64,000 nucleotides of DNA. Origin: Lachnospiraceae bacterium (GTDB lineage Bacteria > Bacillota > Clostridia > Lachnospirales > Lachnospiraceae). The stretch lies in assembly GCA_020860755.1 (NCBI GenBank), contig JAJBTQ010000004.1, forward strand, positions 30,326 to 94,325. The letters are read 5' to 3'. The notes under the pieces are model-generated. The model did no database searches, was not told the origin of the DNA, and saw only the letters and a program-made list of their open reading frames with translations. The first letter of the stretch is position 1. Each line of letters begins with the position of its first letter. The translations under genes and the position numbers were made by a program. Positions 10,748-16,393 of the stretch are shown here, piece after piece.

Positions 10748-11740
10748 CTACTTAGAAATAAAGGCAAACAATTCCTCCCAGAAAGGCTGCACGGCAGAAT
10801 CGGAGGAATTATAGATTTCGTGTTTTGTTCCCGGAAGTCTCTGTAAACGGATGCTTCCGGGATGATTTTTGTTCCGCTTTCGGACAAAATCGTTCATGGC
10901 GGTAAGAGACACAGAACCGTCCTGCTCCGCCTGAAACGCCAGCATCGGTACATCTCCGTCAAGGGCAGAATGTTCCATCAGCTCCCGCTCCAATTGTGCG
11001 GCGGCATGGGCCCATCCGAGCGAGGCCGCAGAGGTCTGGAACAGCGGGTTGGCTGCCTTTATCTCCTGATAATAGTCAAACCGCGGGCGGGAAAGCGATG
11101 CACTCATCGCAAAATTTTCCGGTCCCTGATAGGGGTGATGTCCCGGGCAGTAGTCCTTCGACATCCCGATCGCACACAGCGCGGCAGAACCTACAACCAT
11201 AACGCGGTAGGGATATGGGCCGCACAGCGGCCGGATCATGGGCGAAGACAAAACGACCCGCTCAAAAAGTGCCGGCTCCTGCGCCGCAATGGCAAGGGCG
11301 ATGCCGCCCCCCATGGAATGACCGTACAGATACATCGGCAATAAATCTCCCCCGGCAGTCCGGTTGACATCCCTGCGCGCGATCCGGGCGATGGCCTTTA
11401 GATCGCTTAAATAGCGCTTGTAGCTGTCCACGTGGACAAGCGACAGATCGTCGACCAGACGGTAACTCCGTCCGTGACCGCAGTGCTCCGGTATATAGAC
11501 ATGGTATCCCTCATGGAGAAAATACCAGATGGATTCGGCATATTTCGCCGCGGACTCCTTAAACCCGTGGGAGATCAATACCACGCCGCGGGGCTCTTTC
11601 GCAAGATAGCGCTCACAGTAGAGCCGCTGCCCGTTTGCGCGCTTTGCACAAAATACAGTCCTTCGTGTGGCCAGCCAGGGCTCGACCTCCTCCTTCATGG
11701 TCTCAATATAATGTTCCTCTGTGATCAGTGGTGTCTCCAT
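10748..11740 (-). CDS. Alpha/beta hydrolase (lysophospholipase/monoacylglycerol-lipase-like)
   Basis: GVVLISHGFKESAAKY, YGHSMGGGIAL nucleophile elbow. Confidence 0.88.
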   Translation of the reverse strand: METPLITEEHYIETMKEEVEPWLATRRTVFCAKRANGQRLYCERYLAKEPRGVVLISHGFKESAAKYAESIWYFLHEGYHVYIPEHCGHGRSYRLVDDLSLVHVDSYKRYLSDLKAIARIARRDVNRTAGGDLLPMYLYGHSMGGGIALAIAAQEPALFERVVLSSPMIRPLCGPYPYRVMVVGSAALCAIGMSKDYCPGHHPYQGPENFAMSASLSRPRFDYYQEIKAANPLFQTSAASLGWAHAAAQLERELMEHSALDGDVPMLAFQAEQDGSVSLTAMNDFVRKRNKNHPGSIRLQRLPGTKHEIYNSSDSAVQPFWEELFAFISK

Positions 11741-13557: not shown

Positions 13558-13747
13558 GTCTTCCCCCCTCTTTTACTGATAGTTTTAGGCGTAAATCTGA
13601 GAAAAGTATAGCACAGAGGGTAGGATTTGTCAGCAGATACGCCCAAAAAGCTCTTGACGCGGAGAGCACAGCATCCATTGCTCTGCAAGCCGTCTTACAT
13701 TGCTATATTATTAGTCGTATGGTAAAATATCCCCCATAGGGAAAGGG

Positions 13748-16351
13748 GTGACCACTACCATGAACATCGTGAAAAGCATCTATTGCCGCATCTATCAACT
13801 GGTCTTAAGAATCCTGCTGCCCTTCCTTCCGTATCGCAATCCGGAGATCGTCAGCAGTGTCCGCGATCTGCCGGATATAATTAAGAAAAACGGGAGCAGC
13901 CATGTCCTGCTCGTAACGGATAAGGGGATCCGGTCGCTCGGGCTGACCAAAGAGCTGGAAGAGGCACTGACGGAAAGCGGGATTCCCTACTCTGTCTATG
14001 ACGGGACAGACCCCAACCCGACCACAGCCAACGTGGCGGAGGCGGAGGCTCTCTACAAGTCAGAAGGGTGTGACGCGATCATAGGCTTTGGTGGTGGTTC
14101 CAGCATGGACTGCGCTAAGGGAGTCGGTGCACGCATCGCGAAGCCGAATCAGACACTCGCGCAGATGGCCGGCATCTTAAAAGTACACAAAAAACTGCCG
14201 CTTTTGATCGCGGTCCCGACGACGGCGGGCACCGGCTCTGAGACGACGCTGGCGGCTGTCATCGTGGATGCCGAGACCAGACATAAATATTCGATCAATG
14301 CATTTGTGCTGATCCCGCGCTATGCGGTTCTCGATCCGAAGGTCACGTTAAGCCTGCCCCCATCCATCACGGCGACCACCGGTATGGATGCCTTAACCCA
14401 TGCAATAGAGGCTTACATCGGCCGTTCAACAACAAAAGAAACGCGAAAAGACGCCGAACAGGCGGTAGCGCTGGTCTTTGCAAATCTGGATAAAGCTTAC
14501 ACTGACGGAAGCGACGAGACGGCCAGGGAAAATATGCTTCACGCCGCTTACTATGCGGGCTGTTCATTCACCAAATCCTATGTCGGCTATGTTCACGCGG
14601 TAGCACACTCTCTCGGCGGGGAGTACAATGTCGCGCACGGACTTGCGGTTGCGATCGTGTTGCCGTATGTTCTGGAAGGTTACGGTGAAAAGATATATGA
14701 AAAATTGGCAAAACTGGCCGTGGCGGCCGGCATTGCCTCAGAAGAGACCTCCGAAACAGAGGCTGCGCGGAAGTTTCTCCGGGAAATCCGGGAGATGAAT
14801 GCACGCTTTGGCATCCCGGAGACCTCAAAGGATCTCCGTAAGGAAGATATCCCGAAGCTGGCCAAGCTGGCTGATCACGAAGCCAATCCGCTCTATCCGG
14901 TTCCGGTCCTGATGGGTCCGGAAAAACTGGAGCCGTTCTATTATATGATATTGGAAGAGACGGCAGAAAGCGTGGAACAGAAAGATGTCCACGCCCTGCT
15001 GGAGGCGCAGCGGGCATTTTTCGACTCCGGGCAGACGCTCCCGTTGATATTTCGGCAGCGTGCACTTGCAACCCTGCAGGACGGACTCGCCAAATATGAA
15101 AACGAGATTGATGAGGCACTCCGCCGGGATCTCGGCAAGAGCGGATTCGAGAGTTACATGTGTGAGGTCGGTCTGACGTCGAGCGAGCTCAGTTATATGC
15201 AAAAGCACGTAAGGCGCCTTGCAAAGGAGAGACGGGTGAAAACCCCTCTGGCCCAGTTCCGTTCGCGGAGTTATGTCAAACCGTCTCCTCACGGGGTCGT
15301 ACTGGTCATGAGTCCCTGGAACTACCCGGTCCTGCTGACTCTTGATCCGCTGATCGATGCACTGGCAGCCGGCAATACGGTCATCTTAAAGCCGAGCGCC
15401 TATTCGCCGCACACAAGCAGGGTCTTAAAGGAGATGCTCGCGGACTGCTTCCCGGAGGAGTATGTCGCGGTGGTGACCGGCGGGAGGAAGGAAAACAGCG
15501 CGCTCTTGCAGGAACATTTTGACTACATCTTCTTTACCGGAAGCAAGCCGGTGGGGCGTGAGGTCATGCTCGAAGCCTCCAAGCATCTGACTCCGGTGAC
15601 CTTGGAACTCGGCGGCAAAAGTCCCTGCATTGTCGATGCGAGCGCAAAGATCGAGCTCGCGGCCAAGCGGATCGTATTCGGCAAGTTCTTAAACTGCGGG
15701 CAGACCTGCGTCGCACCGGACTACATCTACTGCGATGCGTCGATAAAGGACAAATTAATTCAGGAACTGATATCCCAGATCCATATCCAGCTGGGGGAGG
15801 CTCCGCTTCAAAACCCGGATTACGGGCACATGGTCAACCAAAAGCACTTTGATAGGGTCTGCGGTCTGATCGAATCCGAAAAGGTGGCGGTCGGAGGCGG
15901 ATCAAATCCGGACACACTGCAGATCGAGCCGACTGTGATGGATCGGGTGACATTTGAAGATCCCGTCATGCAGGAGGAGATCTTCGGACCGGTCCTTCCG
16001 GTATTGACCTACGATTCGCTGGATGCTGCGATCCAAAAAGTTAACTCCATGGAGTATCCTCTTGCGGTGTATTTGTTTACTGAAAACAAGGAGGCCGAGA
16101 AAAAAGTCACCTCCGAGTGCCGGTTTGGCGGAGGCTGCATCAACGACGTGGTGATCCACCTGGCAACCAGCGAGATGGGCTTCGGCGGATTCGGCGAGAG
16201 CGGAATGGGCTCTTACCATGGAGAAAAGGGATTTCTGACGTTTTCGCATGAAAAGAGCATCGTAGATAAAAAGACCGGCATCGATATGCCGATGCGGTAT
16301 CAACCATATAAGAAACTATATGAGTGGATGGTTCATCTGCTTGTCCACTGA
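13748..16351 (+). CDS. Iron-containing alcohol dehydrogenase (N-term) :: aldehyde dehydrogenase class-3-like (C-term) fusion
   Basis: Single 867-aa ORF. Residues ~30-405 Fe-ADH (GFGGGSSMDCAKG, HAVAHSLGGEYNVAHG); residues ~415-867 ALDH (MSPWNYP, TLELGGKSPCIVD, FLNCGQTCVAPDY). Confidence 0.93.
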   Translation: MTTTMNIVKSIYCRIYQLVLRILLPFLPYRNPEIVSSVRDLPDIIKKNGSSHVLLVTDKGIRSLGLTKELEEALTESGIPYSVYDGTDPNPTTANVAEAEALYKSEGCDAIIGFGGGSSMDCAKGVGARIAKPNQTLAQMAGILKVHKKLPLLIAVPTTAGTGSETTLAAVIVDAETRHKYSINAFVLIPRYAVLDPKVTLSLPPSITATTGMDALTHAIEAYIGRSTTKETRKDAEQAVALVFANLDKAYTDGSDETARENMLHAAYYAGCSFTKSYVGYVHAVAHSLGGEYNVAHGLAVAIVLPYVLEGYGEKIYEKLAKLAVAAGIASEETSETEAARKFLREIREMNARFGIPETSKDLRKEDIPKLAKLADHEANPLYPVPVLMGPEKLEPFYYMILEETAESVEQKDVHALLEAQRAFFDSGQTLPLIFRQRALATLQDGLAKYENEIDEALRRDLGKSGFESYMCEVGLTSSELSYMQKHVRRLAKERRVKTPLAQFRSRSYVKPSPHGVVLVMSPWNYPVLLTLDPLIDALAAGNTVILKPSAYSPHTSRVLKEMLADCFPEEYVAVVTGGRKENSALLQEHFDYIFFTGSKPVGREVMLEASKHLTPVTLELGGKSPCIVDASAKIELAAKRIVFGKFLNCGQTCVAPDYIYCDASIKDKLIQELISQIHIQLGEAPLQNPDYGHMVNQKHFDRVCGLIESEKVAVGGGSNPDTLQIEPTVMDRVTFEDPVMQEEIFGPVLPVLTYDSLDAAIQKVNSMEYPLAVYLFTENKEAEKKVTSECRFGGGCINDVVIHLATSEMGFGGFGESGMGSYHGEKGFLTFSHEKSIVDKKTGIDMPMRYQPYKKLYEWMVHLLVH

Positions 16352-16393
16352 AAAAAACCGGCTGTGAAGTTGTTTCACAGCCGGTTTTTTATA
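16352..16393. terminator. Bidirectional terminator between convergent genes
   Basis: aaaaaaACCGGCTGTGAAgttgTTTCACAGCCGGTtttttt. Confidence 0.88.

Follow-up and report, generated by a model that had tools for sequence, protein, structure and literature searches.

How an alcohol dehydrogenase and an aldehyde dehydrogenase came to be joined in the order opposite to that of AdhE, and which aldehydes such a protein would handle, is the question raised by a gene in a stretch of 64,000 nucleotides from a Lachnospiraceae bacterium (the window). Features of the gene are listed in order of position, with window coordinates, strand and, in brackets, the evidence used.

13742..13748, + strand: Shine-Dalgarno-like AAAGGGG for ATG 13760 (sequence; duplex energy)
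13760..16351, + strand: fused Fe-ADH/ALDH3 gene, 863 aa (open frame; Pfam domains)
13760..13834, + strand: amphipathic basic N-terminal segment MNIVKSIYCRIYQLVLRILLPFLPY, aa 1-25 (hydrophobic moment; conservation)
13856..14887, + strand: iron-type alcohol dehydrogenase domain, aa 33-376 (PF00465 and PF25137; alignment to 3bfj)
14960..14974, + strand: junction TAES-V, from the native ADH end FYYMILEE to Val405 (comparison with the ends and starts of unfused genes)
14966..16261, + strand: class-3 aldehyde dehydrogenase domain, aa 403-834 (PF00171; alignment to 6k0z and ALDH3A1)
16283..16348, + strand: C-terminal tail DMPMRYQPYKKLYEWMVHLLVH (homologous to DLPMRYQPYxKxxxKLIRMFLK, conserved in relatives)
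16356..16392, no strand assigned: inverted repeat followed by a T-run, likely a terminator common to the convergent guaA (by eye)

The reading frame 13748-16351 (+) contains no stop before the TGA that ends at 16351; the single open frame reported by the first-pass annotation was confirmed throughout, the only correction being its start. Two starts are possible, GTG 13748 and ATG 13760, and the latter is likely the true one (863 aa, not 867), because it has a strong Shine-Dalgarno sequence (duplex -12.7 kcal/mol, vs. -5.9 kcal/mol for the GTG) and homologue alignments begin there (MNxxKKxYCRxxQ). Pfam domains, all far over cut-off, were placed at aa 33-193 (Fe-ADH), 204-376 (ADH_Fe_C), and 403-834 (Aldedh); the reported order, reversed relative to AdhE, is therefore real, with Fe-ADH (aa 33-376) preceding Aldedh. 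All motifs quoted earlier were found again: GGGSSMDCAKG at 111-121, HAVAHSLGGEYNVAHG at 279-294, TLELGGKSP at 614-622, and NCGQTC at 645-650. An AlphaFold model from single-sequence input was unusable (pLDDT 36, pTM 0.24).

The ADH half is an iron-type (type III) alcohol dehydrogenase, with both domains over cut-off (PF00465, 155.6 bits; PF25137, 142.9 bits) and the predicted metal ligands D210, H214, H279, and H293 conserved in the alignment to 3bfj. Its closest solved homologues are DhaT (1,3-propanediol dehydrogenase) and NAD-dependent methanol dehydrogenase (3bfj, 8zrl); they have the same metal ligands but are stand-alone enzymes and align without the amphipathic N-terminal segment of the window protein. 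D54 occupies the position of the NAD+-selecting aspartate in FucO-type enzymes.

The ALDH half is, by its PDB matches and its catalytic Asn, Glu, and Cys, a class 3 enzyme and predicted to be non-acylating, in agreement with the ALDH3 or fatty-aldehyde type proposed earlier. The best matches were S. aureus AldH (6k0z), ALDH3A1, and FALDH; N521, E616 (general base), and C650 (nucleophile) are in place, and all catalytic residues checked are intact. Although their catalytic residues align, these closest solved relatives (S. aureus AldH; human ALDH3A1 and ALDH3A2, the latter being FALDH) are single-domain enzymes without an ADH partner, unlike the window protein. The top NCBIfam profile was MdlD benzaldehyde dehydrogenase, at 416.8 bits and under its cut-off of 550.

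Both ends of the protein had been described as hydrophobic or amphipathic, which was borne out for one of them. The N-terminal segment lies at the 97th percentile for hydrophobic moment and is conserved in about 45 homologues, fused and unfused, whereas the C-terminal tail, at the 52nd percentile, is not unusually amphipathic. Because unfused enzymes have it equally, the amphipathic N-terminus is not specific to the fusion and predates it; being basic and conserved, it fits contact with a membrane.

Relatives were collected by protein searches of genomes across the genus, family, order, class, and phylum of the window protein, and fusion status was assigned from open reading frames re-called on the fetched DNA, since the open-frame figures of the search overstate fusions. 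Many apparent fusions in the family, judged by open-frame or internal-stop figures, were after re-calling mostly two genes, in frame or close together, with a stop between them. One relative (G1217) encodes a polypeptide of 1093 aa in which a YhhN domain (PF07947, 79.5 bits, cut-off 25.6) precedes ADH and ALDH3. In its family (f207), 201 genomes were searched and their open reading frames re-called, which gave the following arrangements, with genomes in brackets.

L196:5925-9206; L250, L251, L252, L255, L256, L258: single open reading frames of about 1083-1174 aa with YhhN, Fe-ADH, and ALDH3 (n = 7: G1217, G1383, G1452, G1508, G1410, which runs to the contig end, G1431, G1400)
L257, L263-L269: YhhN fused to Fe-ADH only, with a separate ALDH3 as the next gene (n = 8: G1482, G1405, G1398, G1467, G1418, G1424, G1436, G1457)

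Five further ADH-ALDH3 fusions of this family are without YhhN. The linkage of YhhN to the ADH-ALDH3 module is a new finding that comes from one clostridial family and not from the window. YhhN also lies directly downstream of the ADH-ALDH3 pair in G161, which belongs to the same family as the window bacterium. On the tree, at least five changes are needed to explain the joining of YhhN to ADH; the f207 YhhN fusions do not form one clade, and one group of them branches near the window's own group. PF07947 was not found by Pfam in the window protein itself; the window genome's own YhhN over cut-off is a stand-alone gene (L241:2052-2711, C5) on the same contig, about 17 kb past the end of the window and about 64 kb from the fused gene. 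Among 80 genomes, YhhN occurred in 11 of the 45 with the pair and in 3 of the 35 without it, a weak association (Fisher p = 0.08). In human, Legionella, and M. tuberculosis, YhhN (TMEM86) proteins act as lysoplasmalogenases, freeing fatty aldehyde (PMC9052158); the clostridial YhhN domains, from the same family of membrane proteins, are putative lysoplasmalogenases.

The reading that we favour, with modest confidence, is that the window protein combines two activities, is probably membrane-associated and NAD-linked, and serves to clear aldehydes, most likely fatty ones from membrane-lipid turnover. YhhN, where fused or adjacent in relatives, would probably supply the aldehyde, so that the input there would be aldehyde rather than alcohol; the ALDH3 half would convert aldehyde to acid with reduction of NAD(P)+ to NAD(P)H, and the Fe-ADH half would interconvert aldehyde and alcohol with NADH/NAD+. 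Acting together, the halves would make an acid from one aldehyde and an alcohol from another with no net redox change, a dismutation that would suit a fermenting anaerobe. Aldehydes derived from lipids are the substrate with the most support, since fatty aldehydes are what YhhN enzymes release; the earlier guess of lipid substrates has gained independent support from relatives in which YhhN is fused to this module, with the substrate itself still putative. Because YhhN is present in just 11 of the 45 genomes with the pair, it is not the sole source of aldehyde, and others must exist.

A wider proposal, to which we give slightly less than even chances, is that anaerobic Clostridia use these genes as a dedicated system for plasmalogen breakdown, in which YhhN would free a fatty aldehyde, ADH-ALDH3 would dismute it, and the parts would have been fused repeatedly. 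On the same tentative footing, the window protein may combine the final two steps in a single chain, with the triple polypeptide as the extreme case. Anaerobic gut bacteria make plasmalogens, and the synthase genes are known, according to a review (PMC9702350); a text search of it returned nothing on plasmalogen breakdown. A lysoplasmalogenase-family domain joined to fatty-aldehyde enzymes constitutes a directly testable candidate for this breakdown.

A role in general detoxification of short-chain or aromatic aldehydes from diet or fermentation, with no part in membrane lipids, is unlikely in our view, yet it accounts for several observations. ALDH3-type enzymes have a broad substrate range, and the top NCBIfam profile of the ALDH half is that of MdlD benzaldehyde dehydrogenase. 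MarR-type regulators, which often sense small aromatics, adjoin many pairs, being encoded directly upstream at about 15 pair loci, at the fused gene of G295, and at f207 loci; YhhN is missing from most genomes with the pair. This explanation also holds that YhhN fusions of a single family are not transferable to the window protein, against which stand the scatter of these fusions over more than one clade (at least five changes), with one group near the window's group, and the YhhN gene adjoining the pair in the window's family. Conservation of the amphipathic N-terminus likewise favours the membrane-associated enzyme for fatty aldehydes over a general detoxifier.

As to its origin, the fusion comes from an operon, because at about 70 loci of related Clostridia ADH is directly followed by ALDH3, as two separate genes with a common orientation that mostly overlap or lie less than 100 nt apart. 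Pairs within 400 nt numbered 68, 22 of them in frame, and in several relatives one stop codon and a gap of 3 nt are all that divides the in-frame genes. How widespread the fusion is, an issue raised by the first-pass annotation, can be answered by these unfused pairs together with about 20 other genomes in which the ADH-then-ALDH order recurs in fused form; this recurrence excludes chance. Fusions were found in genus g115 (G114, G895, G899; also G904, cut by a contig end, and G897, with a broken frame), in G295, G441, and the divergent G1206, and in twelve genomes of family f207. In the window's genus, 1 of 20 genomes carries the fusion and one (G880) the unfused pair.

The halves of the window protein meet in a spacer of four codons without a stop, followed by Val405, a GTG where the native ALDH start codon sits. 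Its Shine-Dalgarno score of -4.1 compares with a background median of -3.7 and a native median of -8.8; an internal ribosome-binding site at the window junction, also considered, is unsupported at this background level. The g115 fusions (L077, L163, L164, L168, L169) retain an internal ATG and a Shine-Dalgarno sequence of native strength at the old ALDH start, and may therefore yield free ALDH in addition to the fused protein. Junctions differ from lineage to lineage. The fusion probably arose when a two-gene operon with a short in-frame spacer lost the stop codon of its ADH gene, a course probably taken in other lineages as well.

A single clade of fused genes was rejected in the first tree (AU p = 1.6e-5), in which well-supported branches force at least four changes between fused and unfused states; with the f207 genes added, at least seven changes are forced, and the same holds once long branches are removed. 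As its sister the window gene has a pair of separate genes (G1031; support 94-97), and grouping it with the nearest f207 fusions was rejected (AU p = 0.0004). Seven independent fusions are not strictly proved, because the changes counted may be gains or losses; trees and differing junctions support several separate gains of the fusion.

The window fusion is known from one draft genome, 79% complete, none of the other genomes of the genus (20 in all) has a fusion, and in several relatives the genes share a frame and are interrupted by one stop codon and 3 nt, all of which would agree with an assembly or consensus error at the stop codon between two truly separate genes. We regard such an error as very improbable: the junction has no stop in the window DNA; the background-level Shine-Dalgarno score at the native ALDH start fits dependence on the fusion; and the same architecture is found in many other genomes.

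Among known systems, AdhE is likewise a polypeptide of similar length that unites an ALDH with an iron-type ADH, but in the window protein the order is reversed, the ALDH is of class 3 and non-acylating by sequence, and the fusion has a separate origin. BdhE (Konno et al. 2025; PDB 9LDL; PMC12454647) is an ALDH-ADH fusion that arose independently of AdhE from neighbouring genes; its ALDH comes first and its ADH is nearest maleylacetate reductase, whereas the window protein has ADH first, not the BdhE order, and an ALDH3. It is very unlikely that the window protein is a reverse-order equivalent of AdhE or BdhE with a fermentative role in converting acyl-CoA, aldehyde, and alcohol into one another, for although the two enzyme classes are identical and BdhE, with a different ALDH, also reduces acetyl-CoA (PMC12454647), the ALDH half is nearest ALDH3 and retains the general base Glu616 used for hydrolysis, which points away from a CoA-acylating enzyme, and the AdhE profile PRK13805 reached 252.6 bits against a cut-off of 951, with its best stretch in the ADH part. 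Konno et al. (2025) listed just five reverse-order ADH-ALDH proteins in InterPro and left them unstudied (PMC12454647); in the open-access literature, outside which most subscription journals lie, we found no paper on an ADH-ALDH3 fusion or on the joining of YhhN to a dehydrogenase. The fusion described here adds a third example, in reverse order, to the known ALDH-ADH fusions; with its several apparently separate origins and the operons that survive unfused, it bears on how fusion enzymes and channelling evolve.

Some distant or irregular relatives were also recorded. A reverse-order ADH-ALDH fusion of 881 aa (L197:2632-5277) is 33% identical, has the catalytic motif NAGQIC, and sits on a very long tree branch. 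An open reading frame of 1210 aa (L262) was rejected as a triple fusion, its N-terminal part having no Pfam domain and being probably a false upstream extension. Searches of genome contigs and viral contigs for related loci returned distant relatives or none, and the plasmid search gave no record covering 80% of the query.

The ADH-ALDH3 pair forms a module complete in itself, and the genes around it vary. A TetR-like protein is encoded ahead of three g115 fusions; the window gene has no such regulator, MarR-type or TetR-like, and its upstream neighbours are on the opposite strand. The identity of one regulator as FabT was dismissed, at 43 bits far below the cut-off of 200. About 2 kb upstream of the fused gene, window positions 10748-11740 (-) encode an alpha/beta hydrolase (PF12146, Hydrolase_4; monoglyceride lipase/lysophospholipase type), for which no evidence of a tie to the fused gene was found. 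At L083, L087, and L088, a different Fe-ADH precedes the same ALDH3, and the small protein encoded upstream has a hydrophobic N-terminus and no Pfam match. A choloylglycine-hydrolase-family gene (PF02275; L253:3676-4920) is located between a MarR regulator and a fused ADH-ALDH3, and a patatin-like phospholipase gene (L110:13845-15044) about 4 kb downstream of ADH-ALDH-YhhN genes.
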